Part shown: piece after piece, positions 35,028 to 56,161 of the stretch | Layout of the letters: each line of letters begins with the position of its first letter | How positions within the stretch are numbered: the stretch's first letter is position 1 | Assembly: GCF_020179425.1 (NCBI RefSeq) | Contig: NZ_JAILYM010000009.1 | Location: 1-64,000 of the forward strand | DNA from: Novosphingobium percolationis | Lineage (GTDB): Bacteria; Pseudomonadota; Alphaproteobacteria; Sphingomonadales; Sphingomonadaceae | Direction of reading: 5' to 3' | DNA length: 64,000 bases | Made by a program: the position numbers and the translations under genes | Notes under the pieces: generated by a model | Databases searched by the model: none | Told to the model about the DNA's origin: nothing | Seen by the model: the letters and a program-made list of their open reading frames with translations, nothing else

Positions 35028-36040
35028 TGTGCGTCTCCCACAAAGCCCTGGCCCGACGCGAGCTGGCCGCAGGTGCGCATCGCGCTGAGCATCATTGCCG
35101 CGTCCGCCTGTCCCGTGCCGACGATGTCATAGGCGGTGCCGTGGGCTACCGACATGTGTAGATAGGGCGGCCCCATCATGATCACGCAGTTGCCCGAAAA
35201 GCCCCAGGTCTTGACGGCAATGTGTCCCTGATCGTGGAACATCGCGAGGACCATGTCGTAGCGCCCCTCGATGCACTGACGGAACACCGAATCGGGCGCA
35301 ATCGGGCCTTCGACGGCAATGCCCGCTGCCCGCGCCCGCTCGACCCCGGGGGCAATCGCAAACCGCTCCTCGTCGCCCATGGCGTGCGGGTTCAGCCCGG
35401 CCACGGCGATCCGCGGACGGGCGATTCCCCACGACCGCATGGCATCGTTGACCTGCCCGATCGCCTTGGCCACGAGGTCCGCGGTTATCACGTCGATCAC
35501 CTGGCGCAGAGACATGTGATCGGTAAGATGCGCGACCCGCAAGGGTCCGGTCAGCAAAACCAGATAGCTTTCGCCAGGGGTCGGACTGATGACCTTGTCG
35601 AGTTTTCCGGCCATCTTGAGCGAACCGGTGCTGATCGGTCCCATGATTGTCGCGGCAAAGGATCCGTCCCGGGCCAGCGCGTCGAGTTCGTCCAGCCATT
35701 GCGCCGAGGCATGGCCGGCCACTTCGGTATCCTCGCCCAGCGGCAAAACGCCGTCCGGCAAGGCACCGGTGTCGATCACGTCGATCACCCCGACATCGTC
35801 GCTGGGCCGTTCGAACGAACGCATCCGGCGCACCCGGGCCCTGACCCCGGTCATGTCGAGCGCACGCTCCACCGCGGCTGCCGAGCCAAGCAGCACCGGA
35901 ATCGACACCTCGTGTACCGCCCCGTCCGCGAGCGCCTTGACCGTCACTTCGGGTCCGATTCCCGCAGGATCGCCGATCATGGTCCCGACGACGGGCCGGT
36001 CTGCTGTTGCTGCCATGGGCCGGTCAGATGCTGTAGACAT
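35024..36040 (-). CDS. PdxA-family dehydrogenase, TphB-like dihydrodiol dehydrogenase
   Basis: Up to 338 residues of the PdxA fold: TMIGDPAGIGPEV, GPISTGSLKMAGK, HMSLRQVIDVIT, AGLNPHAMGDEE with metal-site His, and MFHDQGHIAVKTWGF. PdxA paralogues beside oxygenases (TphB) oxidatively decarboxylate terephthalate-type cis-diols to protocatechuate. Here it lies between two oxygenase pairs, so it could process a diol carboxylate from either. A housekeeping PdxA is less likely in this setting. ATG 36040 overlaps the beta gene; ATG 36016 is an alternative nearer to homology. Confidence 0.8.
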   Translation of the reverse strand: MSTASDRPMAATADRPVVGTMIGDPAGIGPEVTVKALADGAVHEVSIPVLLGSAAAVERALDMTGVRARVRRMRSFERPSDDVGVIDVIDTGALPDGVLPLGEDTEVAGHASAQWLDELDALARDGSFAATIMGPISTGSLKMAGKLDKVISPTPGESYLVLLTGPLRVAHLTDHMSLRQVIDVITADLVAKAIGQVNDAMRSWGIARPRIAVAGLNPHAMGDEERFAIAPGVERARAAGIAVEGPIAPDSVFRQCIEGRYDMVLAMFHDQGHIAVKTWGFSGNCVIMMGPPYLHMSVAHGTAYDIVGTGQADAAMMLSAMRTCGQLASGQGFVGDAQ

Positions 36041-41902: not shown

Positions 41903-44074
41903 ATGAGGGGGCTTAAGCTGCGCCTGTTCGTGACTGCGACCACCATTCTTACGCAATCGCTTTTTTCTAACGTCGCACTGGCCCAGGATTCGGCCGCCAC
42001 GCAATCCGAGGAGGAACAAGCAACGACCGGTATCGAAGATATCGTCGTCACTGCGACCCGCCGCGAAGCAAGATTGCAGCAGGTGCCCGTGGCCGTCACA
42101 GCGCTGGGCGGAGATGCCCTGCAATCGGCCGACGTCTCAACAGTAAGGACGCTGACCCAGCTGGTGCCTGGCTTTGTAGGCAGCCGCAACATGGGTGTCT
42201 TCCAGCCCGTGGTTCGCGGTGTCGGCTCAACCGGCATCTCGATTGGCGACGAACCCAATATCGCCACCTACATCGACGGTGTCTATCAGCCCGAATCTGC
42301 CGCAAACTGGATCGATCTGGTCGAGGTCGAGCGGGTTGAGGTGCTGCGCGGTCCGCAAGGCACCACTTTTGGTCGCAATGCGACGGGCGGGCTGATCAAT
42401 GTGATCACGCCGGACCCCAGCTTCGATTTCCGGGGCAAGGCTTCCTTGCGGGTCGGTAGGATGCGGCGCGAAGCGGGCGACTATGACGCGCGGCTCTATG
42501 TGACCGGCCCGATCAGCGAAAAGGCCGCGATCGATCTATCTGGCCTCTTCCGCAAGAACGATGGCTATATTGACGATCTGGTGCGTGGTGGAACGCTTGG
42601 CGATCAGCGGGTCATCGACCTGCGCAGCAAGGTTCTGTTCAAGCCTGCGGACAATTTCAAGGTTGTCCTGACCGGCGAATTCTTCGATCAGCAGAGCACC
42701 ACCAATTCGCCCCAGCCGGTCGACGGCAACACTGCTGGACGGCGGTTTCCTGGCGTCATCCTGCCAACGGGCCCCTGGCAGGCGTCGTTGACCGAGGTGC
42801 CCATGCTGAACCTTCGGCGGTGGACCTTCGCCCTGCACACCAAACTCGAACTGGGCGCAGTCAACCTGGAAACCACCAGCGGTTTCCTGAACTTGCGCTG
42901 GACCCAGAACACCGATTCGGATGCATCGAACCTGCGCCTTGGAAACTTTCTGGCCATCTTCAACGCGGAATCCGGCAGCCAGGAAATCAAGCTCAGCTCG
43001 TCGAACCCCGGGCCGTTCCAATGGCTCGTAGGCGGCTATTTCTACCAGTTCGGTGGCAGTTCCTTCCTCCAGCCCTGGACGGCCGCGAATCCTACCCTCC
43101 CCCTAGCCGGGCCGACTCTTGAGCCGCACCTCGGCGGTCGGTCCTTCGCGGGCTTTGCGGATGCGACCTATGAGGCCACGCCCGGCCTGTTCGTGAATCT
43201 CGGTGGCCGTTACACCACGGAAAAACGCGAGTTCTCGCAAACGGCGAATGGCACCCTAGTCGTCAACGACGTCGATAAGACGTTCAATAAGTTCAACTAC
43301 AAAGTCGGCCTTCGTTACGAAATTAGCAACACCACGAACGTCTACGCAAGTTGGAGCACCGCCTTCAAGAGTGGTGTCTACAATATGGCGAGCACCCGCA
43401 GCGTGCCGGTCGAACCGGAGGAAATCAAGGCCGCCGAATTCGGCATCAAGTCGGATCCGCTCAATTGGCTGCGGGTCAACCTTGCGACCTATTACTACGA
43501 CTACAAAAACCTTCAACTGCAGTCGAAGGATTCGCTTGGCGCGGGATACATTCTCCAGAATGCCGCCAATGCGGAAATCTATGGCGGCGAACTGGAATTG
43601 ACCGTTGCACCCACCAGGGATTTGAAGTTGCGCGGGGCGCTAGCCTACACCTACGCGCGCTACAAGGATTTCACGGCCGCCCAGGGCTTTCTCCCGCAGA
43701 CTGACGGCGGAAATACCGTCGTAACGCTGGATGCTTCGGGCAACGTCATGACTCGTGCACCGAAATGGTCAGGCAACGTCGGCTTTGACTGGGGGCATGA
43801 TCTGGGCGGCGGTCGGTTGAGCATCAACGGCAACCTCTCTTTCAGTTCGCGCCTCTACTACGACTTCGCCAACAACTTCTCGCAAGGTGCCTATACCTTG
43901 TCGAACATGTCGATTGGCTGGACGCCCGAGAGCGAGAAATGGAAAGTTTCCCTGTGGGCCACCAACCTGACCAACGAAAAAGTGTTCCAGACGATGCGCC
44001 CTGGCGCGCTATCGACCGATGGTTTCTACGAGCAGCCGCGCAAGATCGGTGCGACGGTTGAAGTCAGGTTTTAA
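41903..44074 (+). CDS. TonB-dependent outer-membrane receptor (first)
   Basis: 723 residues. N-terminal signal peptide (about 1-28, ending NVALAQ), TonB-box region IEDIVVTATRRE, plug domain with QLVPGFVGSRN and VLRGPQGTTFGRNATGG, then a beta-barrel ending in GATVEVRF with the terminal Phe. It probably imports a bulky or poorly soluble substrate or a siderophore. GGGAGAGAG precedes the ATG. It is next after nahD with a 45-bp gap, and a second receptor follows. Substrate unknown. Confidence 0.88.
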   Translation: MRGLKLRLFVTATTILTQSLFSNVALAQDSAATQSEEEQATTGIEDIVVTATRREARLQQVPVAVTALGGDALQSADVSTVRTLTQLVPGFVGSRNMGVFQPVVRGVGSTGISIGDEPNIATYIDGVYQPESAANWIDLVEVERVEVLRGPQGTTFGRNATGGLINVITPDPSFDFRGKASLRVGRMRREAGDYDARLYVTGPISEKAAIDLSGLFRKNDGYIDDLVRGGTLGDQRVIDLRSKVLFKPADNFKVVLTGEFFDQQSTTNSPQPVDGNTAGRRFPGVILPTGPWQASLTEVPMLNLRRWTFALHTKLELGAVNLETTSGFLNLRWTQNTDSDASNLRLGNFLAIFNAESGSQEIKLSSSNPGPFQWLVGGYFYQFGGSSFLQPWTAANPTLPLAGPTLEPHLGGRSFAGFADATYEATPGLFVNLGGRYTTEKREFSQTANGTLVVNDVDKTFNKFNYKVGLRYEISNTTNVYASWSTAFKSGVYNMASTRSVPVEPEEIKAAEFGIKSDPLNWLRVNLATYYYDYKNLQLQSKDSLGAGYILQNAANAEIYGGELELTVAPTRDLKLRGALAYTYARYKDFTAAQGFLPQTDGGNTVVTLDASGNVMTRAPKWSGNVGFDWGHDLGGGRLSINGNLSFSSRLYYDFANNFSQGAYTLSNMSIGWTPESEKWKVSLWATNLTNEKVFQTMRPGALSTDGFYEQPRKIGATVEVRF

Positions 44075-44133
44075 AACGAGGTGGAAAAATGGATCGGAAC
44101 CGCGGTCCAAATCAAACTCTAGGGAGAAGATGC

Positions 44134-46608
44134 ATGTCAATGATGTACAACACGGGCAGCGGCAAGCAATGGCTGCTTACTGGCAGCAGCCTTGTGCTTG
44201 CTTGCCTTGCCGTTGCTCCGACCAACGCTTTCGCGCAGGACGCTACGACCAATAGCGCGGTCGGCCAGGATGCCGAACGCCAGGGCGGCCTCGACGAGAT
44301 CTTGGTCACGGCCCGTAAGCGCGAGGAGAACGCCCAGGAAACCCCGGTTGCGATTACCGCGATGAGCGGCACGATGATCGAGGATCGGCAGATTGCCAAC
44401 GTGGCGCAGGTCGCGTCCTATGCGCCCAACGTCAACATTCAGCCAGTCGGCAATATTTCGGGCTCGAGCGCCTCGCTCACCGCGTTCATTCGCGGCGTCG
44501 GCCAGACCGACTTCAACATTACCGTCGATCCTGGCGTCGGCATCTATGTCGATGGCGTCTACGTGGCGCGGTCGGTCGGTGGACTGCTGGACATGGCGGA
44601 CATTGGCAGCGTTCAGATCCTGCGCGGTCCGCAAGGCACGCTGTTCGGCAAGAACACCATCGGTGGTGCGATCATCGTCAACACGAACCAGCCGAGCAAC
44701 GATTTCGAACTAAAGCTTGAGGCCGCCACCGGCAGCTTCAACCGCGCCGACTTCAAAGGCATCGTCAACATCCCGATCAGCGAAACGCTCGCCATGCGGG
44801 CGGTCGCGTCCTACGAAACCCGCGACGGCTATCAGCGCCGCCTGTTCGATGGCGGACGGCAGGGCAACAAGGACAGCTTCGCCGGCCGCGTGGCGTTCAA
44901 GTGGACGCCCTCTGATGCCTTCACCGCAACTCTCGCCGGCGACGTCAACATTCGCCGCGAGGAGCAGGCAGCCATCTATCTCATCGAAAACCGGGACTCA
45001 CCCGATCTTCTGCAAATCGTGAATCTGCCTGATGGCCGTCAAGTTGCCTTCCCTAGCTCAAACTTCGGTTACAACAAGCTGGGCGGTGGCGCTGGACAAT
45101 GTGGCGCCCCGGGTGAACTGGCACCGGTCAGCAATCCGAACTGCGTTTCTTCCCGATGGGTTACAGGCGATATCGATACGACTTGGGCCGGAGGTCCAAA
45201 CCGTTCGGACTTCGACCTATGGGGTGTCAACCTGACCCTCGAATATGACTTCGGGGATGTGACACTGAAGTCTATCAGCGCCTATCGCGACCAGAAATCG
45301 GTCATCGAATACGACTTTGACGTGACCCCCCACGAGGTGCTGCAGCTGACCAACAATATCAACTTGTGGCAGGCCTCGCAAGAACTGCAGCTCAATGGCA
45401 ACCTGTTCGACGACAAGCTCAAATTCGCTCTGGGCGCCTATTACCTGAAGGAAAAGGGCGACGACATCGAACCGCTGCGGTTCGGCTTCGCAAATTTCTT
45501 CAGCGGCGGGGCAATCGATAACGACAGCTATGCGGCCTATCTCCAGTTCACCTACAAGGTCACCGACCGTCTCTCGATTACGCCGGGCATCCGCTACACT
45601 AACGAAACCAAGCGTTTCGATCCTTCGGCGCAGGTGATCTACCGCGATTACACCGCCGGGCTGCTTCCGCCCTATCCCGATGGCGTATTCATCCAGTACA
45701 GCCGCTGCCTTGTGGGTCAACCCGCGCCGCAGTTGCTGCCGAACGGGTTCCCCGACCCGGCATGTGTTCCGTCGGCGACCAATCCTGGCGGCAACCATAA
45801 TCTACCTGCGGTTGAGGTGTCCGCCAAAGCCAAGGAATGGACCCCCGCGGTCTCGGTGAACTATCAGTTCACCAACGACATCATGGGCTATGCGTCTTAT
45901 TCGAAGGGCTTCAAGAACGGCGGCTTCAGCCAGCGTATTTTCCCTGGTGAACTGGTAACTCCGGCATTTACGCCCGAATTTGTGGAATCTTACGAAGTTG
46001 GCCTGAAGACCGAACTGTTCGACCGAAGGCTTCGCATGAACCTCGCTGTCTTCCAGTCCGATTACAGCGATATCCAGATCGTAGTGAACGAAGGCATTGC
46101 GCCTAAGGTTCGCAATGCTGGTGAAGGGCGCATCAAGGGCTTCGAAATCGAAGGCCAGGCCGCCCCGACCGACTGGCTGCGGATCGATTACGGCGTCGGC
46201 TATCTCGACGCCTATTACCGGACAGTCAGTCCTACAGCCTTTCCGGTGAACCTTAACTCGAAATTTGCCTTTGTTCCCGAATGGACTGCGACAGTCGCTG
46301 CTAACGCAACTGTTTACGAAGGCGACAAGGGCAAGGTCGTGCTTCGCGGCGACTGGTACCACCAGAGCGGCACCTTCAAGGATGCCGTGAACAGCCCGCA
46401 ACTCTATCAACCTGCCTATAGCGTGTTCGGGGCCGGCGCCTCGTACACCGATCCCAGCAATCATGTAACCGTTACTGCCGGTGTCACCAACATCGGTGAC
46501 AAGCGCTACATTCAGGGCGGTTATGTCGATCTGAACGTCGGCGGCGTTGCGGAAGCCACCTATTCGCGGCCGCGCGAATGGTTCCTCAAGGTCGCCTACA
46601 AGTACTGA
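44134..46608 (+). CDS. TonB-dependent outer-membrane receptor (second)
   Basis: 824 residues. Signal peptide (about 1-35, ending TNAFAQD), TonB box LDEILVTARKRE, plug with SYAPNVNIQP and ILRGPQGTLFGKNTIGG, barrel ending FLKVAYKY. Longer loops than the first receptor and only distant similarity, so it likely takes a different ligand. ATG 44134 follows AGGGAGAAG. The two receptors are the only outer-membrane uptake proteins in the window. Confidence 0.88.
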   Translation: MSMMYNTGSGKQWLLTGSSLVLACLAVAPTNAFAQDATTNSAVGQDAERQGGLDEILVTARKREENAQETPVAITAMSGTMIEDRQIANVAQVASYAPNVNIQPVGNISGSSASLTAFIRGVGQTDFNITVDPGVGIYVDGVYVARSVGGLLDMADIGSVQILRGPQGTLFGKNTIGGAIIVNTNQPSNDFELKLEAATGSFNRADFKGIVNIPISETLAMRAVASYETRDGYQRRLFDGGRQGNKDSFAGRVAFKWTPSDAFTATLAGDVNIRREEQAAIYLIENRDSPDLLQIVNLPDGRQVAFPSSNFGYNKLGGGAGQCGAPGELAPVSNPNCVSSRWVTGDIDTTWAGGPNRSDFDLWGVNLTLEYDFGDVTLKSISAYRDQKSVIEYDFDVTPHEVLQLTNNINLWQASQELQLNGNLFDDKLKFALGAYYLKEKGDDIEPLRFGFANFFSGGAIDNDSYAAYLQFTYKVTDRLSITPGIRYTNETKRFDPSAQVIYRDYTAGLLPPYPDGVFIQYSRCLVGQPAPQLLPNGFPDPACVPSATNPGGNHNLPAVEVSAKAKEWTPAVSVNYQFTNDIMGYASYSKGFKNGGFSQRIFPGELVTPAFTPEFVESYEVGLKTELFDRRLRMNLAVFQSDYSDIQIVVNEGIAPKVRNAGEGRIKGFEIEGQAAPTDWLRIDYGVGYLDAYYRTVSPTAFPVNLNSKFAFVPEWTATVAANATVYEGDKGKVVLRGDWYHQSGTFKDAVNSPQLYQPAYSVFGAGASYTDPSNHVTVTAGVTNIGDKRYIQGGYVDLNVGGVAEATYSRPREWFLKVAYKY

Positions 46609-46619
46609 CGGCTCTGCCT

Positions 46620-46641
46620 GGGGTGACCGAAAGGTCACCCC
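46620..46641 (+). terminator. Hairpin after the second TonB receptor
   Basis: GGGGTGACC and GGTCACCCC form a perfect 9-bp stem with a GAAA loop, 12 bp after the receptor stop. There is no T-run afterwards, so it may stabilise mRNA or end transcription with Rho. Confidence 0.5.
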
Positions 46642-46729
46642 ATCGATTGGGGGGGATCCGCTCCGGCGGTTCCGCCCCGTTTCGTTTGCATCCCTTGAAC
46701 TTCCCAACCGACTGCCAAGGTTTCGCTCC

Positions 46730-48229
46730 ATGCCTGTTTCCCAGCCATCCTTGTCCCGGCCCGAATTCGCTGCAGGCCTGCCGATCGTCGATGGCGAGGC
46801 CATAGCCACTACCGAGCGGGCGATTGCCGTGATCAATCCTGCGACGGGGATGGCGCTGACGGAAATCCCCCTCCTAGGTGCGGTCGAGGCGAACCGCGCC
46901 GTCGAAAGCAACGCCAGAGCCTTCGGGGAATGGCGGGCCCATTCGGCCGCCGAACGCGCCGCCATTCTGCACGCTTGGTTCGCGCTTGTTCGCGAAAACC
47001 GCAACGATCTGGCAATACTGCTCACGGCCGAACAGGGCAAGCCGCTCGCCGAAGCGCTGGGCGAGATCGACTATGCGGCCAGTTTCATCCAATGGTTCGC
47101 GGAAGAAGCCCGGCGCATCAATGGCGAGATCATCCCCGCCCAACGCGATCGCCGGGTCCTGGTTCTCAAGCAGCCGGTGGGCCTGGTCGGCGCGATTACG
47201 CCATGGAATTTTCCCGCAGCGATGATCACGCGCAAGGTCGCGCCCGCCCTGGCCGCAGGATGCACCGTTACACTCAAACCCGCCGAACTGACCCCGCTCA
47301 CGGCCTTCGCGCTGGCCCGGCTGGCACTCGAAGCCGGTGTTCCGGCGGGCACTTTCAACGTCATCGCAGGCGATGCGCCGGCGATCGGATCGGTCCTGAC
47401 CAGCCATCCCGGCGTTGCCAAATTCACCTTCACCGGCTCCACCACGGTTGGCAAGCTGCTGACCGCGCAGTGCGCGACGACGCTCAAGCGGGTGTCGATG
47501 GAGCTGGGCGGCAACGCTCCGCTGATCGTGTTCGACGATGCCGATATCGACGTCGCCGTGGCGGGCACGATCGCTTCAAAGTTCCGAAACACCGGCCAGA
47601 CCTGCGTCTGCGCCAACCGCATCCTGGTGCAGAACGGCATCCATGACCGGTTCGCCGAAGCGCTGGCCGCCAGAGTCGCGGCTTTCCGCGTCGGCAACGG
47701 CCTGGAAGGCGAGACCGATCAGGGCCCGCTGATCACCGCCGCGGCATTGCAGAAGGTGCGCGAACATGTCGGCGATGCCGTCGGGCGCGGTGCCCGGATC
47801 GTCACGGGAGGCGAAGGCCATGAAGCCGGCGAGCTGTTCCACCAGCCCACGGTCCTGACCGGCGCCAACCCGGACATGCGGCTGGCGCTGGAAGAGACCT
47901 TCGGACCGGTCGCTCCCCTCTTCCGTTTCGAAACCGAGGCCGAAGCCCTGACCCTGGCCAACAGCACCCGCTCGGGCCTGGCCGCCTACGCATTCACCCG
48001 CGACATGGACCGGTTCTGGCGCCTTGCCGAAGGTCTCGAGGTCGGCATGGTCGGCGTCAACAACGGCATCATTTCTTCGGAAACCATGCCTTTCGGCGGG
48101 GTCAAGGAATCGGGACTGGGGCGCGAGGGATCGCGTCACGGGATCGACGAATTCCTGGAACTCAAGGCCATAAGTCTCGGCTTGCCGCCGCAGCCCGCAA
48201 TTGAAGCGGAGAATCCCCAAAGGTCATAG
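46730..48229 (+). CDS. NAD(P)-dependent (succinate-)semialdehyde dehydrogenase
   Basis: 499 residues of the GabD-type ALDH group: PWNFPAAMITRK, FTGSTTVGKLL, Glu in MELGGNAP and Cys in NTGQTCVCANR, FGGVKESGLGREGS at the end. It fits succinic semialdehyde, which an HpaI aldolase (58652) would release here together with pyruvate. The ATG at 46730 is where homology begins, with no strong ribosome site. It is followed by an untranscribed-looking gap of about 45 bp with an operator-like palindrome. Confidence 0.85.
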   Translation: MPVSQPSLSRPEFAAGLPIVDGEAIATTERAIAVINPATGMALTEIPLLGAVEANRAVESNARAFGEWRAHSAAERAAILHAWFALVRENRNDLAILLTAEQGKPLAEALGEIDYAASFIQWFAEEARRINGEIIPAQRDRRVLVLKQPVGLVGAITPWNFPAAMITRKVAPALAAGCTVTLKPAELTPLTAFALARLALEAGVPAGTFNVIAGDAPAIGSVLTSHPGVAKFTFTGSTTVGKLLTAQCATTLKRVSMELGGNAPLIVFDDADIDVAVAGTIASKFRNTGQTCVCANRILVQNGIHDRFAEALAARVAAFRVGNGLEGETDQGPLITAAALQKVREHVGDAVGRGARIVTGGEGHEAGELFHQPTVLTGANPDMRLALEETFGPVAPLFRFETEAEALTLANSTRSGLAAYAFTRDMDRFWRLAEGLEVGMVGVNNGIISSETMPFGGVKESGLGREGSRHGIDEFLELKAISLGLPPQPAIEAENPQRS

Positions 48230-48353: not shown

Positions 48354-48971
48354 GTGAAGCGCGTGGTCGTTGCCATAACCGGAGCGACAGGCTCGGTTTA
48401 CGGGCAGCGCCTGCTCGAGATGCTCCGCGAACAAGGTGGCTGGGAAACCCACCTCGTCATGTCGCAAGCCGCCTTGCTCAACATCCGCGAAGAAATTCCC
48501 GATGGGCGCCGCCTGATCGAAGGTGCAGCCGATGTGGTGCACAGTGTCCGCAATGTCGGTGCCAGCATCGCCAGCGGTTCGTTCTTGTGCGACGGCATGG
48601 TGATAGCGCCCTGCTCGATGCGCACTCTGGCAGCGGTGGCCCACGGTCTGTCCGACAATCTGATCACGCGCGCCGCCGATGTGATGCTGAAGGAGCGGCG
48701 CAAGCTGGTGCTGATGACCCGCGAGACGCCGCTCAACCTGGCTCACCTGCGCAACATGGTCGCCTGCACCGAAATGGGCGCGGTCATTTTTCCACCGGTC
48801 CCGGCATTCTACGCCCGTCCTGCAGGCCTTCAGGACATCGTCGATCACAGCTGCACACGGGTGCTGGATCACTTCGACATACATCGCAACGCAGCGGGCC
48901 GCTGGCAGGGACTTTCCACCGAGAGTGCGGTCGCCGAACCGGCGCCGCTGAAGATCGAAAGGCAAGCATGA
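48354..48971 (+). CDS. vdcB: UbiX-like flavin prenyltransferase (VdcB-type)
   Basis: 205 residues from GTG 48354. ITGATGSVYG (FMN site), then GSFLCDGMVIAPCSMRTLAAVAHG, KERRKLVLMTRETPLNLAHL and FYARPAG. It makes prenyl-FMN from FMN and dimethylallyl phosphate, the cofactor for the UbiD decarboxylase encoded 4 kb downstream. A longer form from ATG 48276 is possible but the extra residues are not conserved. Its stop overlaps the next start (ATGA). First gene of the p-alkylphenol-type operon. Confidence 0.88.
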   Translation: MKRVVVAITGATGSVYGQRLLEMLREQGGWETHLVMSQAALLNIREEIPDGRRLIEGAADVVHSVRNVGASIASGSFLCDGMVIAPCSMRTLAAVAHGLSDNLITRAADVMLKERRKLVLMTRETPLNLAHLRNMVACTEMGAVIFPPVPAFYARPAGLQDIVDHSCTRVLDHFDIHRNAAGRWQGLSTESAVAEPAPLKIERQA

Positions 48972-49540
48972 TGGCTTGGGATATCAAGCGACGCGAGCTC
49001 CTGGGAGCCGGAGCGCTGGGCGCAGCCGTGGCCGGGCTTGGCGTATTGCCCGGAGCGGCGGCGGCCCGCGCACGCAGGGTGACGGTGATCGAGGAAAGCG
49101 CGTCGCCGGAAAGCCGGATGTTCGCGGCGACGCTTGCCGAAAGCGGCGTGGTTGGCCGGACCATCCGGCTTGACCGGTCGCTCAATGTCCTTCTGCACGA
49201 ACTGGACGATGCCGATGGCCTGATCGTTGGCCTGACGTCGGATCCCGCGGCCATGATCGCCGGACAGGTTCTGGTCGCGCGCGGCGCCCGCCCGGCGTTG
49301 TTGTGGCGGCACCATTACACGGGCGGACGCTGGCAGCATCGGACCAAGGGCGCCGCGCAGCTGCTCCAAGGCGCCTCGGCGGCATGGCCGGTGGCCGTCG
49401 CGCACCTGGTTCGCGACGCGCTCGGCGCGCCAACCGAAGCTCGCTTGAACACCTGTCAGTCGGGTTCGTGCGATATCGCGGCCAGCAGCCCCGGACTGCT
49501 GGCCTCCTGGGTTTATGAAATCGGGGGAGACCTGTCTTGA
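48968..49540 (+). CDS. Unrecognised protein with twin-arginine signal
   Basis: 190 residues. I recognise no family. The N-terminus MAWDIKRRELLGAGALGAAV looks like a twin-arginine (Tat) signal with an alanine-rich hydrophobic segment and a likely cleavage site after AAAARA. The mature part has no membrane segment; it includes a His-rich WRHHYTGGRWQHR and a Cys pair in NTCQSGSCD that could bind metal or form a disulfide. The gene overlaps ubiX and the flavoprotein gene at both ends, so it is firmly in the operon and its product may accompany the methylhydroxylase in the periplasm. Confidence 0.7.
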   Translation: MMAWDIKRRELLGAGALGAAVAGLGVLPGAAAARARRVTVIEESASPESRMFAATLAESGVVGRTIRLDRSLNVLLHELDDADGLIVGLTSDPAAMIAGQVLVARGARPALLWRHHYTGGRWQHRTKGAAQLLQGASAAWPVAVAHLVRDALGAPTEARLNTCQSGSCDIAASSPGLLASWVYEIGGDLS

Positions 49541-51096
49541 GCCGCATTGTTCCCCAGGGTGTCGACGCATCCACTTTCAACAAGGCGCTCGACGAGCTTG
49601 CCGCGGTTGTCGGCAAGCAATGGGTATTCCTCGACGAGCTTCCGCTTTCGGCGTACCGGGACGCCTATTCGCCGCTGGCCGATGGCGAAATGCTGCCGTC
49701 CGCCGCTGTTGCGCCCGACGGTGTCGAGCAAATCCAGAAGATCCTGGCAGTCGTAAACGCCTACAAGATCCCTGTCTGGACCATCGGGACCGGCCGCAAT
49801 TTTGCCTATGGCGGCCCGGCCCCGCGCAAATCCGGCTATGTCATGCTCGATCTGCGGCGGATGAACCGCGTGATCGAAGTAAACGAGAAATACGGCTATG
49901 CGCTGGTCGAACCCGGCGTGTCCTACATGCAGCTTTATCGCCATCTGCGCCAGATCGGCAGCAAGCTGTGGATCGATCCTGCCGCACCAGCCTGGGGCGG
50001 CGTGATGGGCAATGCGCTGGAGCATGGCGCCGGCTATACCCCCTATGGCGACCATTTTGTCATGCAGTGCGGCATGGAAGTGGTTCTGGCCGATGGTGAA
50101 ATCGTCCGCACCGGCCAGGGCGCACTTGCCGGATCGAAGCATTGGCAAGTCACCAAGCACGTGGCCGGCCCGCATTTCGACGGCATGTTCACCCAATCCA
50201 ATTTCGGCGTGGTGACCAAGATGGGCATCTGGCTGATGCCGGAACCGCCGGGCTACAAGCCCTTCATGATCACCTACCAGAAGGAGGAGGATCTTGAGGC
50301 GATCTTCGAGGTCACCCGGGCGCTCAAGGTCAACCAGATCATCCCGAATGCGGCGGTTGCGGTTGATCTGCTGTGGGAGGCCTCGGCCAAGACCACGCGG
50401 CGCCACTATTACGATGGCAAGGGCCCGCTGCCGCCGTCGATCCGTGCCAAGATCGCCTCGGACCACGATCTGGGAATGTGGAACTATTACGGTGCGCTGT
50501 ACGGCCCGCCTCCGGTGATCGAGAACAACTGGAAGGTGGTGGAGGATGCCTTGATGAGCATTCCCGGCGCCAAGGTCCATTTCGATCGCAAGAACGATCC
50601 GGCCTGGGACTATCGCGTACGGCTGATGCGCGGCGAGCCGAACATGACCGAATTCAGCATCATGAACTGGATCGGCGGCGGCGGGCACATCAACTTTTCG
50701 CCGATCTCGGCGCCCAGTGGTTCCGAAGCACTTGCCCAATACAAGCTGATCAAGCAGCGCTGCAACGATCACGGCTTCGACTACATCGGCGAATTCCTGG
50801 TCGGCTGGCGCGACATGCATCACATCCTGATGATCATGTACGACCGCGCCGACGAGACGATGCGCAAGAGCGCCTACGACCTGTTCGGCCTGCTGGTCGA
50901 CGAGGCTGCGGAGGCGGGGTTCGGCGAATACCGCACGCACCTCGCCTTCATGGATCAGATCGCCAGGACCTACAAACACAACGACGGCGCACTCTGGGAT
51001 CTCCACCACCGTCTCAAGGATGTTCTCGATCCCAACGGCATTCTCTCTCCGGGCAAGCAGGGCATCTGGCCCAAGGCGATGCGCACAAGCGCGTAA
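49537..51096 (+). CDS. pchF: p-Cresol methylhydroxylase-type flavoprotein (VAO/PCMH family)
   Basis: 519 residues. N-terminal FAD-binding domain with the loop TIGTGRNFAYGGPAP (residues 82-96) and GNALEHGAGYTPYGDHF (about 155-171). Substrate domain with MNWIGGGGHINFSP and the phenolate-binding Tyr-Arg in EYRTHLAFMD (about 463-472), ending GKQGIWP. It would oxidise a 4-alkylphenol or a related benzylic alcohol to the aldehyde, passing electrons to a cytochrome c (55793). ATGA overlap with the preceding gene. No own export signal is visible. Confidence 0.87.
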   Translation: MSRIVPQGVDASTFNKALDELAAVVGKQWVFLDELPLSAYRDAYSPLADGEMLPSAAVAPDGVEQIQKILAVVNAYKIPVWTIGTGRNFAYGGPAPRKSGYVMLDLRRMNRVIEVNEKYGYALVEPGVSYMQLYRHLRQIGSKLWIDPAAPAWGGVMGNALEHGAGYTPYGDHFVMQCGMEVVLADGEIVRTGQGALAGSKHWQVTKHVAGPHFDGMFTQSNFGVVTKMGIWLMPEPPGYKPFMITYQKEEDLEAIFEVTRALKVNQIIPNAAVAVDLLWEASAKTTRRHYYDGKGPLPPSIRAKIASDHDLGMWNYYGALYGPPPVIENNWKVVEDALMSIPGAKVHFDRKNDPAWDYRVRLMRGEPNMTEFSIMNWIGGGGHINFSPISAPSGSEALAQYKLIKQRCNDHGFDYIGEFLVGWRDMHHILMIMYDRADETMRKSAYDLFGLLVDEAAEAGFGEYRTHLAFMDQIARTYKHNDGALWDLHHRLKDVLDPNGILSPGKQGIWPKAMRTSA

Positions 51097-51130: not shown

Positions 51131-52576
51131 ATGAAGAACCTCGATCACTGGATTGGCGGCGTGGCGGTAGCGCCTGGAAGTGGCACCTATTTCGACGACC
51201 TCAATCCGGTCGACGACAGCGTCTACGCCAGGGTTGCGGCGGGCACCGCCGCCGACGTCGATCGTGCTGTCGAGGCCGCCGACAAGGCGTTTCGCCAGCA
51301 CCGCGACCTGCCCGCCGCGGTGCGCGAAGGCTGGATGGTCAAGGCCGCGGAAATCATGGAGCGCGACGCCGCGCTGTTCAGCGAGGTATTGATCGACGAA
51401 ATCGGTTCGCCCGCTGCCAAGGCCGGGTTCGAGACGCGGTTCGCAGTGAGCTTCCTGCGCGCCGCCGCCGGGGTGCCGCGGCGGGTCCGCGGCGAGACAA
51501 TTCCCTCCGACACGCCGGGCCGCTTCAGCATGAGCCTGCGCCAGCCGGTGGGGGTAGTCGCCGGGATTACCCCGTTCAACGTGCCGCTGATAAAGGGCAT
51601 CAAGCAATCTGCGATGGCGCTGGCGACCGGCAACGCCTTCGTTCTCCTGCCGTCCGAAGCCGCACCCAAGGTCGCCGATCTGCTCGCCGCCCTGTGGCGC
51701 GAAGCCGGCGTGCCCGATGGGCTGTTCAACATCGTCTACGGCAATGGCGCGGAAATCGGAGATGCCCTGACCGGCCATCCCAAGGTTGCCTCGATAACCT
51801 TCACCGGGTCGTCGCGGGTCGGCAAGCACATCGCCGGGATCGCCGCCCGGAACCTCAAGAAGTATACACTCGAACTCGGCGGCAAGAGCCCGTTGATCGT
51901 GTGCGCCGATGCCGATCTCGAAAAGGCCGTCGGTGCCGCGCTGTTCAGCATCTTCATGTATCAGGGCCAGGTCTGCATGGGGGCATCGCGGATCTACGTT
52001 GAACGTCCAATCTTCAACGCCTTTGCCAAGGCCTTCGCCGCCGCGACGGCCAAGGCCAAGGGCGGCGACCTGCGCGAGCCCACCACCATGCTCGGACCGA
52101 TCATTTCGGAACGCCAACGCGATCGCGTCCGCCGGCATATCGACGATGCCCGCACCAAGGGCGCTGCAATTCTTGCGGGGGCCGAATGGAACGGCAACTG
52201 TTGCTCGGCCACGGTGCTGAGCGGCGTGACGCCAGAGATGACGGTCTTTGCCGAGGAAACCTTCGGCCCGGTCACTTCGCTCTATCCATTCGACTCGCTC
52301 GAGGAAGCGATCGACCTGGCGAATGACACCGAATACGGCCTGAGCGCGTCGATCTTCACCCGCGATATCGACAAGGCCCTGCGCTTTGCCCAGCAGGCGG
52401 AAGCGGGGATGGTCCATATCAACGCTCCGACCCTGCACGACGAACCGCACGTTCCCTTCGGCGGCACCAAGGCTTCGGGGTTCGGGCGCGAAGGCACCGA
52501 GGCCGATCTGGAAATCATGACCGAGTGGAAATGGGTGACCGTCCAGACGGCCCCCGCCGGCCACGGCGGCCATTGA
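51131..52576 (+). CDS. Aromatic aldehyde dehydrogenase (vanillin/4-hydroxybenzaldehyde type)
   Basis: 481 residues. ALDH motifs: ITPFNVPLIKG, FTGSSRVGKHI, Glu in LELGGKSP, Cys in YQGQVCMGASR and a C-terminal FGGTKASGFGREG. The ITPFNVPL segment is common in benzaldehyde and vanillin dehydrogenases. Between the flavoprotein and the decarboxylase genes it should turn 4-hydroxybenzaldehyde (or vanillin) into the acid. GGAAAGCAGCAAG is the ribosome site. Confidence 0.86.
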   Translation: MKNLDHWIGGVAVAPGSGTYFDDLNPVDDSVYARVAAGTAADVDRAVEAADKAFRQHRDLPAAVREGWMVKAAEIMERDAALFSEVLIDEIGSPAAKAGFETRFAVSFLRAAAGVPRRVRGETIPSDTPGRFSMSLRQPVGVVAGITPFNVPLIKGIKQSAMALATGNAFVLLPSEAAPKVADLLAALWREAGVPDGLFNIVYGNGAEIGDALTGHPKVASITFTGSSRVGKHIAGIAARNLKKYTLELGGKSPLIVCADADLEKAVGAALFSIFMYQGQVCMGASRIYVERPIFNAFAKAFAAATAKAKGGDLREPTTMLGPIISERQRDRVRRHIDDARTKGAAILAGAEWNGNCCSATVLSGVTPEMTVFAEETFGPVTSLYPFDSLEEAIDLANDTEYGLSASIFTRDIDKALRFAQQAEAGMVHINAPTLHDEPHVPFGGTKASGFGREGTEADLEIMTEWKWVTVQTAPAGHGGH

Positions 52577-52599
52577 GCTGGTCTGACTGAAGGGAATTG

Positions 52600-54057
52600 A
52601 TGATGCAGGATCTGGCCAAGCGATCGCGGTCCATCACCTCGCTGCGGGACTTCCTCGAATTGCTGGGCGATGCCGGACAGGCGATCACCTGGAGCGAGCG
52701 GGTGATGCCCGAGCCCGACGTGCGCAACATCGCGGTCGCCGCATCGCGCGACGCCAACGGCGCGCCTGCGATCGTGTTTGACAACATTGCCGGATACCCC
52801 GGCAAACGCACCGCAGTCGGCGTGCACGGTTCATGGGACAATATCGCGCTGTTGCTCGGCCGCCCCAAGGGAACGACAATCCGCGAACTGTTCTTCGAGA
52901 TCGCCGGGCGCTGGGGCGATGCGGCGGCGCAGATCAGCACCGTTCCCGAAGGCCAGGCGCCGGTTCACGAATGCCGGATCGAAAGCGGGATCAACCTCTA
53001 CGACGTGCTGCCGGTCTACCGCATCAACGAATTCGATGGCGGCTTCTACCTCGGCAAGGCGTCGGTGGCGTCGCGCGATCCGGAAGACCCGGACAATTTC
53101 GGCAAGCAGAACGTCGGCATCTACCGGCTGCAACTGCAAGGTCCCGACAGCTTCACCCTGATGACCATCCCGTCGCACGACATGGGCAAGCAGATCATGG
53201 CGGCCGAACGTACCGGCCTGCCGCTCAAGATCGCGGTCATGCTGGGCAACCATCCGGGGCTGGCGGTGTTCGCGGCGACACCGATCGGTTACGAAGAATC
53301 GGAATATTCCTATGCCTCGGCGATGATGGGCGCGCCGATCCGGCTGACCAGGTCGGGCAATGGCATCGACATCCTCGCCGACAGCGAGATAGTGATCGAA
53401 GCCGAAATGCAACTGGGCGAACGGGTCCTGGAAGGTCCGTTCGGAGAGTTTCCCGGTTCCTACAGCGGGGTCCGCAAGGCGCCGATCTTCAAGGTGACGG
53501 CCATCTCGCACCGCAAGAACCCGATCTTCGAGAACATTTATATCGGTCGCGGCTGGACCGAACACGATACCTTGATCGGCCTTCATACCTCGGCCCCGAT
53601 CTATGCCCAGCTCCGCCAGAATTTTCCGGAAGTCACCGCGGTCAACGCGCTGTACCAGCACGGGCTGACCGGGATCATTTCGGTCAAGAACCGGATGGCG
53701 GGCTTTGCCAAGACCGTCGCGCTGCGCGCGCTGAGCACTCCGCACGGGGTGATGTATCTCAAGAACCTGATCATGGTCGATGCCGATGTCGATCCGTTCG
53801 ATCTCAACCAGGTGATGTGGGCGCTTTCCACCCGCACCCGCGCCGACGACATCATCGTCCTGCCCAACATGCCGGCGGTGCCGATCGATCCCTCGGCCGT
53901 CGTTCCCGGCAAGGGTCACCGCCTGATCATCGACGCGACCAGCTACCTACCCCCCGACCCCGTCGGCGAGGCGCATCTGGTCACCCCTCCGACCGGGCCG
54001 GACATCGACGAGCTGAGCAAGAAGATCCGGGCCATGCAACTGGGAGCTGTGCAATGA
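52600..54057 (+). CDS. vdcC: UbiD-family hydroxyarylate decarboxylase (VdcC-type)
   Basis: 485 residues. The prenyl-FMN enzyme motifs are there: GIYRLQ (Arg) and the Glu pair in LEGPFGEFPG, MGKQIMAAERTGLP and ENIYIGRGWTEHDTLIG. It removes the carboxylate from a 4-hydroxybenzoate or vanillate (or adds it in reverse). It works with UbiX (48354) for the cofactor and the small VdcD-like partner encoded next. ATG 52600 or 52603 (AAGGGA upstream). Here the acid would come from the flavoprotein/dehydrogenase pair upstream. Confidence 0.88.
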   Translation: MMQDLAKRSRSITSLRDFLELLGDAGQAITWSERVMPEPDVRNIAVAASRDANGAPAIVFDNIAGYPGKRTAVGVHGSWDNIALLLGRPKGTTIRELFFEIAGRWGDAAAQISTVPEGQAPVHECRIESGINLYDVLPVYRINEFDGGFYLGKASVASRDPEDPDNFGKQNVGIYRLQLQGPDSFTLMTIPSHDMGKQIMAAERTGLPLKIAVMLGNHPGLAVFAATPIGYEESEYSYASAMMGAPIRLTRSGNGIDILADSEIVIEAEMQLGERVLEGPFGEFPGSYSGVRKAPIFKVTAISHRKNPIFENIYIGRGWTEHDTLIGLHTSAPIYAQLRQNFPEVTAVNALYQHGLTGIISVKNRMAGFAKTVALRALSTPHGVMYLKNLIMVDADVDPFDLNQVMWALSTRTRADDIIVLPNMPAVPIDPSAVVPGKGHRLIIDATSYLPPDPVGEAHLVTPPTGPDIDELSKKIRAMQLGAVQ

Positions 54058-54278
54058 GCAAGACGGTCTGTCCGCGCTGCGCGACCGGCGGCGCCCTCGA
54101 TGACTATCAAGGCAAGGAAGGCGGCAAGGTGGTGTGGACCATCCACCGCTGCCCGACTTGCTGTTTTTCGTGGCGCGACAGCGAACCGGCCAGCGCCATC
54201 GGCATCGGGACTCGTTCGGCGGACTTTGCCGTCGATGCAGCCAATTTCGATCGTTACGTGAAGATTCTCCAGCAATAG
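54054..54278 (+). CDS. vdcD: VdcD-type small subunit of hydroxyarylate decarboxylase
   Basis: 74 residues with two zinc-ribbon knuckles, CPRC and CPTC, and FSWRDSEP, as in VdcD/ShdD subunits. These small proteins are needed for activity or stability of BCD-type decarboxylases. It starts inside the last codons of the ubiD gene (ATGA overlap). The presence of B, C and D subunits supports a decarboxylase of hydroxyaryl acids and not a ubiquinone biosynthesis enzyme. Confidence 0.85.
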   Translation: MSKTVCPRCATGGALDDYQGKEGGKVVWTIHRCPTCCFSWRDSEPASAIGIGTRSADFAVDAANFDRYVKILQQ

Positions 54279-54296: not shown

Positions 54297-55763
54297 ATGA
54301 CAGACCAAGCTCGCCAGATGGCCGCGCTGACCGCGGTGGAAGCTGCGATCGGCGCCGCGGGAGTCGATCGCACCCCTCAGGGGCTGGCCCGCTTTGCAAT
54401 CAGCGGCGCGGCACCGCTTGGCATCGTCCTGCCGGCGGATGAAACCCAGCTCGCCAAGGCGCTGGAGGCGGCGCGAACCGCCGGCGGTGTGCTGCAACCC
54501 GTGTGCAACGGCGCCCACGGCCTCGAAAAGGCCGGGCTGGACAAGGTCATCATCCTTGATCTGCAGCGCATGAACAAAATTCTCGAGGTCAACGAGGCCC
54601 TGGCCTATTGCCTGGTCGAACCGGGGGTGACCTTCCGCCAGCTCGATGCCCATATCAAGGAAAAGGGCATCAAGCTGTGGATCGACCATTGCGGCAATCC
54701 CGACGCCAGTGTGGCCGCAAGCTTCGTCCAGCGTCAGCCTGGCTATACGCCCTATTCCGACCACTTCCTGATGCAGTGCGGGCTCGAGGTCATGCTTGCG
54801 GACGGAAAGCTGGTGCGGACCGGCATGGGCGCCATGCCCAAGAGCACCTGCTGGCAACTGTTCAAGTTCGGCTACGGCCCCTGGGTCGATGGCCTGTTCA
54901 CGCAATCGGATTTCGCCGTGCCGACTAAGGTCGGCATGTGGATGATGCCGCAACCGCCGGCCCACCAGACCTTCATGGTGACCGTGCCCAAGGAAGACCA
55001 GCTGGCCGACCTGCTCGACGTGCTTGGCCCGCTGAAACTCAACATGGTCGTGGCCAACGGCGTCGCGGTCGGGAACGCACTCCACGAAGCCGCCCTGCTC
55101 GGCAAGAAGCGCGGCGACTATGATGGCAAGGGACCGATGGCGGCCAGCGCGGTAACCGCTGCGGGCGAGGCGCTGGGCCTGGGCCACTGGAATCTCTATG
55201 GCGCGCTCTATGGCTTGCCAGGCAATGTCCCGATCCTGTGTGATATGGTCAAGGGGGCGTATTCCTCGATCCCCGGTGCGCGGGTAATCACCGATGGCAA
55301 GGGCATCGATCCCCGCCTGTGGGCCTGGCGCATGGGTGCCATGACCGGCGTGGTGGCCGATGCGCCGGCGCGCGTGCCGGCATGGAACGGCGATCAGGCG
55401 GTTGCCGTCAATCCGGTCAGTCCCGTAGACGGTGAGGAGGCGATGCGGCTCTACGAACTGTCGCGCGACATCTGCGCCAAGCACGAATTCGACTATCTCG
55501 GCGAAACCGTGGCGATCTGGCGTTCGGCCAATCATCGCCAGATTCTGCCTTTTGCCGCCGCGCAGTCCGAAAGCTCTGCACATGCTGGCGAATGCGCCGC
55601 TGCGCTGATCGCGGCGCAGGCCGAAGCCGGTTTCGGGCAGGCGATCGCCGAACCCGGAATGCGCGAAACGGTCGGCAAAACGTTCGAAACCAAGGGGCTT
55701 TCAACCTTGCATGAGCGAGTCAAGAAGGCGCTCGACCCGACGGCCCTGTTCGCATCCGCCTGA
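54297..55763 (+). CDS. Divergent VAO/PCMH-family flavoprotein paralogue, key sites changed
   Basis: 488 residues, clearly related to the flavoprotein at 49537 (VEPGVTFRQLD, GYTPYSDHFLMQCGLEVMLADGKLVRTG, MWMMPQPP). But the FAD phosphate loop (TIGTGRNFAYGG in the first copy) reads PVCNGAHGLEKAG, the second FAD motif MGNALEHG reads AASFVQRQ, and the phenolate pair YR-TH is replaced by a segment ending GQAIAEPGMR. It may lack FAD binding or bind another ligand, and could be an inactive partner of the first subunit. It follows vdcD by 18 bp and precedes a cytochrome c gene. Confidence 0.78.
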   Translation: MTDQARQMAALTAVEAAIGAAGVDRTPQGLARFAISGAAPLGIVLPADETQLAKALEAARTAGGVLQPVCNGAHGLEKAGLDKVIILDLQRMNKILEVNEALAYCLVEPGVTFRQLDAHIKEKGIKLWIDHCGNPDASVAASFVQRQPGYTPYSDHFLMQCGLEVMLADGKLVRTGMGAMPKSTCWQLFKFGYGPWVDGLFTQSDFAVPTKVGMWMMPQPPAHQTFMVTVPKEDQLADLLDVLGPLKLNMVVANGVAVGNALHEAALLGKKRGDYDGKGPMAASAVTAAGEALGLGHWNLYGALYGLPGNVPILCDMVKGAYSSIPGARVITDGKGIDPRLWAWRMGAMTGVVADAPARVPAWNGDQAVAVNPVSPVDGEEAMRLYELSRDICAKHEFDYLGETVAIWRSANHRQILPFAAAQSESSAHAGECAAALIAAQAEAGFGQAIAEPGMRETVGKTFETKGLSTLHERVKKALDPTALFASA

Positions 55764-55792: not shown

Positions 55793-56161
55793 ATGATGAA
55801 AAAGCTGGCTGTCTTGTCGCTCGTTGCTGTTCTCGGTGCTTGCAGCAAGGCACCGAATGCCGAAAAGCCCGACGGCGCCGAAAATTACGCCCTCAAGTGC
55901 GCCGGGTGCCATAACCCGGGGCCCGGTCATCCCGGCACGATGCTGCTTGACCAACTGAAGCGTCCGGTCCCGGCACTGATCGGCCGCAAGGATCTTGAGC
56001 TCGACTATCTGAAGTCGGTGGTGCGCCATGGCCTCGTCGAAATGCCCCCATTCCGTCCGACCGAACTGAGCGACGACGAGATCGCGGAAATCTACGCCTA
56101 CATCAAGGATGCGAAAGCTCCCGTCCAGGCCCCGGCAATGCCGGCTAAGGAAGCGCCCTGA
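55793..56161 (+). CDS. Lipoprotein c-type cytochrome (PchC-like electron acceptor)
   Basis: 122 residues. Lipoprotein signal with lipobox LGAC (Cys at about 17), heme site CAGCH (about 37-41) and a likely distal Met in EMPPF. It should accept electrons from the methylhydroxylase flavoprotein in the periplasm, attached to a membrane. GGAGAG before the ATG. PchC is usually a soluble cytochrome; the lipid anchor here is a variation. It overlaps by 17 bp the end of a minus-strand gene. Confidence 0.87.
   Translation: MMKKLAVLSLVAVLGACSKAPNAEKPDGAENYALKCAGCHNPGPGHPGTMLLDQLKRPVPALIGRKDLELDYLKSVVRHGLVEMPPFRPTELSDDEIAEIYAYIKDAKAPVQAPAMPAKEAP

Follow-up and report, generated by a model that had tools for sequence, protein, structure and literature searches.

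A conserved VAO/PCMH-fold protein without the canonical FAD and phenolate sites, probably a non-catalytic pseudo-subunit of a PCMH-type flavocytochrome

The gene cluster in the window

The window analyzed here is a stretch of 64,000 nucleotides from Novosphingobium percolationis (contig NZ_JAILYM010000009.1, positions 1 to 64,000, forward strand). Positions 25000-62000 form an aromatic-degradation island with several Rieske dioxygenases, meta-cleavage enzymes and TonB receptors, in addition to a biphenyl-2,3-diol 1,2-dioxygenase and a catechol 2,3-dioxygenase. Between about 40 and 61 kb, the genes follow an order like that of plasmid pNL1. A PdxA-like dehydrogenase at 35024-36040 (- strand), which scored below the PdxA cut-offs, is flanked by genes for ring-hydroxylating dioxygenases. 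The genes of the cluster considered here and those just upstream of it are as follows:

41903..44074 (+), first of two upstream genes for TonB-dependent receptors
44089..46608 (+), the other upstream TonB-dependent receptor
46547..48229 (+), second aldehyde dehydrogenase, also upstream and missing from some homologous loci
48354..48971 (+), VdcB/UbiX-type flavin prenyltransferase, passing two UbiX subfamily cut-offs, with 254 bits below the VdcB cut-off of 290
48968..49540 (+), Tat-signal protein (KRREL), 190 aa, with no Pfam or NCBIfam family match at the thresholds used
49537..51096 (+), alpha, a canonical VAO/PCMH flavoprotein with all five motifs, 519 aa, TTG start
51131..52576 (+), aldehyde dehydrogenase, between alpha and VdcC
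52597..54057 (+), VdcC, UbiD-type hydroxyarylic acid decarboxylase (674.6 bits, cut-off 650)
54054..54278 (+), VdcD, small decarboxylase subunit (63.3 bits, cut-off 30)
54297..55763 (+), alpha', a putative FAD-less pseudo-subunit of VAO/PCMH fold, 488 aa
55793..56161 (+), cytochrome c with a CAGCH haem site and a lipoprotein-like signal LGAC (lipobox assigned by eye)

Here, alpha refers to the flavoprotein at 49537-51096 and alpha' to the protein at 54297-55763. The motifs kept in alpha are GTGRNFAYGG (FAD loop), GVMGNALEHG, GGGH, EYRTH and ILSPGKQGIWP. We take the roles of these five elements (FAD loop, GN motif, GGGH, Tyr-Arg pair and C-terminus) to be those of their counterparts in VAO, EUGO and PCMH structures. 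Residues 193-216 of alpha form an unusual GQGALAGSKHWQVTKHVAGPHFDG stretch, and at this place alpha' has the GMGAMP...WQLFK.GYGP form, as in vanillyl-alcohol dehydrogenase (VAD). By homology, the cytochrome c at 55793..56161 is the only cytochrome in the cluster.

Lost motifs and retained fold of alpha'

As the first-pass annotation had stated, the alpha' reading frame is intact, coding for 488 aa with no inner stop; the true start may lie 21 bases downstream, judging from the annotated Sphingobium fuliginis homolog. Alpha' shares 37% identity with alpha over nearly its full length (180 of 490 columns, BLASTP). Alignment of the two proteins bears out the earlier observation that the FAD loop, the GNALEHG motif and the catalytic Tyr-Arg pair are all replaced in alpha': NFAYGG of the FAD loop reads NG---AHGLE, the GN motif GVMGNALEHG reads SVAASFVQRQ, and EYRTH, with the phenolate Tyr-Arg pair, reads QAIAE. 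In the column of the covalent-link histidine, GGGH of alpha is replaced by DQAV, and the C-terminal SPGKQGIWP (PGKxGI) is absent.

The same columns were read in 29 alpha' rows (26 + 3, many near-identical). The N-x-x-Y FAD loop was missing in all 29, and the Tyr-Arg pair in all 28 rows that extend that far. Some alpha' rows in this reading, in the 61-row tree and in the dN/dS analysis begin at an earlier start codon and carry up to 20 extra upstream residues, and loci L011, L021 and L030 failed the open-frame check. A set of 42 FAD-type rows, in which the sphingomonad and Cycloclasticus alphas have five representatives, shows 62 positions conserved at 90% or more. Across 12 diverse alpha' rows, 40 of these are kept, 5 are kept in part and 17 are lost. 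These losses are clustered, with nine neighboring pairs within six residues against a mean of 5.2 (p = 0.022), chiefly at the FAD loop, GN motif, Tyr-Arg pair and C-terminus. Residues Y91, N159, Y465, R466 and G509 are retained in none of the 12 rows, and N88 and G158 in two. Decay is less complete in the Parvularculaceae alpha' (L071:1326-2852), which has lost the FAD loop and Tyr-Arg pair but keeps a C-terminal LSPGK and reaches the Pfam FAD-oxidase_C cut-off just barely (21.2 bits). Because the covalent-link histidine is also missing in several FAD-type rows, its loss is not used here as proof for alpha'; in L167, a histidine lies one place off the aligned column.

An AlphaFold2 model of alpha' built on a 49-row alignment reached a pLDDT of 92.1 and a pTM of 0.90, with lower mean confidence at residues 71-80, where the FAD loop is lost, and at 181-200 and 461-470. 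The 45 best PDB hits in Foldseek were all VAO/PCMH-type enzymes with TM 0.90-0.93 by query length, and the best of them included VAD, EUGO, the PCMH flavoprotein 1dii_A (TM 0.93 by query length), nsVAO and VAO. In this model alpha' keeps the two-domain VAO/PCMH fold at nearly full length, in line with the earlier statement that the rest of the fold was kept. It does not qualify as a catalytic VAO/PCMH protein at the FAD loop (N88, Y91), the GN motif (G158, N159) or the Tyr-Arg pair, and its original description as a second methylhydroxylase is misleading, since the residues expected for such chemistry are gone. Pfam FAD_binding_4 matched alpha' with 81.3 bits (cut-off 26.4) and six other alpha' proteins with 63.7-85.5 bits, well above the cut-off, so alpha' might still bind FAD through other contacts. 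FAD-oxidase_C was matched in alpha only, not in the neighboring alpha' of the window.

Distribution, partners and descent of alpha'

Within the family of the window, 8 of 397 genomes, counting the window's own, carry an alpha' with 60-100% identity, and in each of them an alpha-like match lies at a distance of about 4.6 kb. A scan of GTDB species genomes recovered at least 21 alpha' loci at 59-95% identity (L050-L070) from Sphingobium, Novosphingobium, Croceicoccus, Erythrobacter, Sphingopyxis, one MAG named Hoeflea and one alphaproteobacterial MAG. Among the GTDB matches listed, divergent alpha' proteins came from a Parvularculaceae MAG (42%) and two Cycloclasticus MAGs (36-37%). Three further alpha' genes (L156, L047 and L167) have no decarboxylase genes in the stretch read. 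At the level of classes alpha' is rare: samples of 321 gammaproteobacterial-class and 367 alphaproteobacterial-class genomes, with matches in 8 genomes of each, yielded it in G398, G923 and the window's own genome (G000), among the matches read for motifs, a set that does not include those in G820, G939, G103, G1306, G1399 and G1476 and some second matches.

Close alpha' homologs (77-96%) were also present in 5 of 34 matching plasmid records, all five typed conjugative and carrying the Tat-signal gene; two of them are pNL1 of N. aromaticivorans. All five records label alpha' an FAD-binding or FAD-dependent oxidoreductase (on pNL1, FAD-binding oxidoreductase, with the Tat-signal gene as hypothetical protein), a label that is probably wrong in function. 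An assembly error is an unlikely source of alpha', given its presence in at least 21 public loci and three annotated plasmid regions.

Complete sphingomonad loci have the order UbiX-type gene, Tat-signal gene, alpha, aldehyde dehydrogenase, VdcC, VdcD, alpha' and cytochrome c, and the gene order of the window recurs on pNL1 and S. fuliginis p1. The Cycloclasticus order is UbiX-type gene, Tat-signal gene, alpha, cytochrome, VdcC, VdcD, alpha' and two aldehyde dehydrogenases. L156 reads TonB receptor, Tat-signal gene, alpha, cytochrome, alpha', and L047 and L167 read alpha, cytochrome, alpha', with a TonB receptor within the locus.

Of 29 alpha' loci, 27 have a single FAD-type alpha, a single alpha' and a single cytochrome c, with the FAD-type label assigned by a regular expression. 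The two remaining loci are truncated at contig ends: in L062 the region of alpha and the 3' part of alpha' are missing, and L071 starts downstream of the place of alpha. In a non-random sample of 16 loci without alpha', the number of cytochromes equaled that of FAD-type alphas in 15; five two-alpha loci carry two cytochromes, a three-alpha locus carries three, and L165 has none. The plasmid loci L168 and L169 entered these gene counts only. With one cytochrome per FAD-type alpha, no gene for an electron acceptor is left over for alpha' in these loci. Close relatives of alpha in L158, L159 and L160 occur with a second FAD-type alpha and without alpha', indicating that alpha' is not required by every such alpha.

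The gene directly upstream of alpha encodes a protein (P0007) with an N-terminal twin-arginine signal. Among 15 members of its family, PF10518 (TAT_signal) was matched in five and nothing else was matched; the RR pair, G88, H115, H124, W140-P141 and W181 are invariant. The mature domain is well predicted from about residue 40, and its fold gave no Foldseek match at E <= 0.001 and a middling best VIA Z of 6.7. The gene was present in 8 of 397 genomes of the window's family. It accompanies alpha' in seven of the eight alpha' genomes (in the eighth, G070, the contig begins at alpha), and in G382 it lies beside an ordinary alpha. Homologs just upstream of PCMH-type alphas include:

L072:5414-5998, Tat-signal homolog
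L156:12330-12899 (-), Tat-signal homolog
L158:16489-17076 (-), Tat-signal homolog
L160:9773-10441, Tat-signal homolog
L046:10296-10925 (-), Tat-signal homolog, uncounted in the locus counts as a weak match under the cut-off (E 4.8e-4; 1.5e-7 in another search)

The Tat and cytochrome genes of L066 contain frame breaks, and its Tat count of 2 represents one split gene. Tat homologs precede the alphas of L158, L159 and L160, where alpha' is absent, and none was found at L047 or L167; the gene thus seems linked more closely to alpha than to alpha'. By eye, no signal peptide is apparent in alpha or in alpha'. PCMH-type flavoproteins are described as lacking a predicted signal peptide and their cytochromes as having one (PMC12724174). 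The Tat-signal protein may carry the signal-less subunits to the periplasm as hitchhikers. No description of a Tat protein beside PCMH was found in the open-access literature, among the matches listed.

In a 61-row tree, 14 alpha' rows fell on one side of a single branch (100/100; long alpha' branches may inflate such support). After the FAD, active-site and C-terminal columns were masked, the eight alpha' rows included still grouped together (98/97), making a clade from shared gaps alone less likely. The seven partner alphas formed a clade after masking (94/91) but not in the 61-row tree without masking, where the alphas of L156, L047 and L167 grouped with the first alpha of L160 (92/90). Constraining alpha' to its own alpha was rejected (p-AU 1e-6, 2e-5, 4e-53 and 9e-10, for groups chosen once the first tree had been seen), and since the constrained trees were rejected with the lost columns masked, recent duplication of the neighboring alpha was rejected as an origin. 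The trees exclude L023, which was read out of frame, and L010, which is identical with the alpha gene of L167.

Trees of alpha and alpha' for 12 pairs had 6 of 9 splits in common, a number reached in 0 of 2000 label shuffles (mean 0.23, maximum 4). Of the six unshared splits, four had less than 80% bootstrap and two were above (92/95 in alpha, 99/99 in alpha'), so the congruence is strong, although incomplete. Together with the AU tests, the shared splits show that alpha' is no recent copy of its neighbor and has largely traveled with alpha. Phylogenetically, alpha' is placed as one old clade across Alpha- and Gammaproteobacteria. Second FAD-type alphas in L158 (5764-7356, -) and L159 (4664-6361, -) have Leu-Lys in place of Tyr-Arg, keep the FAD motifs and have their own cytochrome. 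That of L158 is the FAD-type branch nearest to alpha' in the masked tree (86/88), and constraining it to the other alphas was not rejected (p-AU 0.24). Stepwise loss is possible, first of the phenolate site and then of the FAD site and own cytochrome.

Possible roles and known systems

We consider that alpha', a conserved protein, is probably a pseudo-subunit of a PCMH-type flavocytochrome and has no catalytic role. The first-pass annotation had offered two readings, a pseudo-subunit of a hetero-oligomer or an enzyme of altered chemistry. The former is now the better supported of the two, by the single FAD-type alpha wherever the contig allows a check, the lack of a second cytochrome gene for alpha' and the alpha-like tree, and it is still a reading of genes and trees.

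In the proposed working, alpha' would fill the second flavoprotein place of the alpha dimer, and the result would be an asymmetric alpha-alpha'-cytochrome complex with one FAD. In a reaction with water, alpha would oxidize a 4-alkylphenol such as one of the p-cresol or creosol type to its benzyl alcohol and aldehyde, with FAD passing the electrons to the lipoprotein cytochrome. The aldehyde dehydrogenase would then produce the acid and the Vdc-type decarboxylase would decarboxylate it. The role of alpha' would lie in assembly, stability, export or half-site control, not in chemistry, and the pair of alpha and alpha', which lacks signals of its own, would be brought to the periplasm by the Tat-signal protein. 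A cresol-like phenol as the substrate is a guess. Catabolism of p-cresol is located on pNL1; no paper on cresol genes of pNL1 or Cycloclasticus was found in the open-access literature, among the matches listed.

Another possible role of alpha' is that of an independent enzyme with changed chemistry, using another cofactor or ligand or binding FAD differently, and acting on a pathway intermediate. Such an enzyme would explain the retained fold and Pfam FAD domain and the 72 positions at least 90% conserved among the 12 alpha' rows, 39 of which fall in residues 149-226. It is nonetheless unlikely: the FAD, phenolate and C-terminal motifs have been lost together, the former active-site columns vary between alpha' groups with no new common motif seen by eye, and alpha' has no cytochrome of its own. 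The position of alpha' next to decarboxylase genes in most loci found fits an enzyme of this pathway, and is offset by L156, L047 and L167, where alpha' occurs without them in the stretch read.

Slightly less probable again is a chaperone for the assembly, flavinylation or export of alpha that stays outside the finished enzyme. One alpha alongside alpha' wherever testable, the missing catalytic residues and the Tat protein in most of the same clusters are all compatible with this role. However, a nearly full-length fold and an alpha-like tree fit a dimer partner at least as well, and some close alphas do without alpha'.

Selection on alpha' was assessed by the Nei-Gojobori method in 11 strain pairs, which were hand-picked and non-independent. 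Ratios of dN/dS were 0.07-0.21 for alpha' in all 11 pairs and 0.03-0.14 for alpha in the same pairs; several dS values were tiny or above 1, so single ratios are rough, and all are far below 1. Both dN (1.1- to 3.6-fold in eight of the pairs) and dN/dS were higher in alpha' than in alpha in 10 of 11 pairs. By these estimates alpha' is under purifying selection, and the earlier view that the gene is selected holds, also considering that it has been kept with the cluster across two proteobacterial classes. A pseudogene was rejected on the low dN/dS and the conservation in relatives. A paralog decaying toward loss, which the raised dN might suggest, is highly improbable given these ratios, reading frames free of inner stops in 21 sphingomonad-type loci (L062 being cut by a contig end) and 6 others, and a single clade in two classes. 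Within the same strain pair, dS was strongly unequal across adjacent operon genes in L051/L052 (alpha 0.48, alpha' 0.04), L053/L057 and L058/L059, which suggests recombination inside the cluster.

If alpha' is indeed a pseudo-subunit, its retention with an active partner in two proteobacterial classes would provide a natural experiment on why an enzyme retains an inactive half. A wider picture, which we put forward tentatively and hold to be rather doubtful as a whole, is that alpha' represents an old subfamily of cofactor-free look-alikes in one-sided PCMH-type enzymes, the dead half serving assembly or half-site control, combined with Tat hitchhiker export. Hitchhiking, if true, would explain how signal-less flavoproteins reach a lipoprotein cytochrome. 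The gene sets on pNL1 of the laboratory species N. aromaticivorans bear on both the role of an FAD-less alpha' and the export of signal-less flavoproteins. In strain DSM 12444 the Tat-signal protein, alpha, alpha' and the cytochrome are encoded by SARO_RS17175, SARO_RS17180, SARO_RS17200 and SARO_RS17205, respectively.

The nearest precedent for alpha' is the PCMH of Geobacter metallireducens (PcmI/PcmJ), likened here by description and not by sequence. As in the window, it has two unequal flavoprotein-type subunits and a cytochrome c; according to Johannes and coworkers in 2008, it is reportedly an alpha-alpha'-beta2 complex with FAD on alpha only and an FAD-free alpha'. We know of no VdcBCD or Tat protein in the Geobacter system. 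In the phylum of Desulfobacter latus, alpha-like genes occurred in 7 of 395 genomes, and the two loci read there, L076 and L129, had no tandem alpha genes. One study gives 41% and 39% identity of PcmI and PcmJ to BpfA, names Tyr394 of PcmI as the FAD link and describes a pcmCDEF membrane complex in the Geobacter system (PMC12724174). From identities so close to each other, PcmJ would appear less diverged than the alpha' of the window.

The PCMH of Pseudomonas putida (PchF/PchC) shares the fold of alpha' (1dii_A) and a cytochrome partner, and its flavoprotein has no predicted signal peptide (PMC12724174). It is described as alpha2beta2 with FAD in each alpha (PMC13416013), whereas alpha' lacks those sites. 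The VAD of Marinicaulis flavus (8s7n-8s7w) ranks first among the sequence and structure matches of alpha', whose closest folds also include nsVAO of Novosphingobium (9ffk, 9fge); both are FAD enzymes, unlike alpha' as read here. The FAD of nsVAO is bound non-covalently (PMC7617285), so that loss of the covalent link alone need not mean an FAD-free protein, but the losses in alpha' go much further. BpfAB of Sphingobium yanoikuyae DN12 resembles the window in pairing a sphingomonad PCMH-like flavoprotein with a Sec/SPII cytochrome; its two clusters each have one flavoprotein and one cytochrome, and the accessible part of the paper mentions no alpha' (PMC12724174).

No description of the alpha' clade of the window was found in the open-access literature, among the matches listed. 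An FAD-free alpha' is, from what is reported of Geobacter, already known as a kind, and what seems new is a widespread and strongly degenerate clade, the rule of one cytochrome and the Tat partner.
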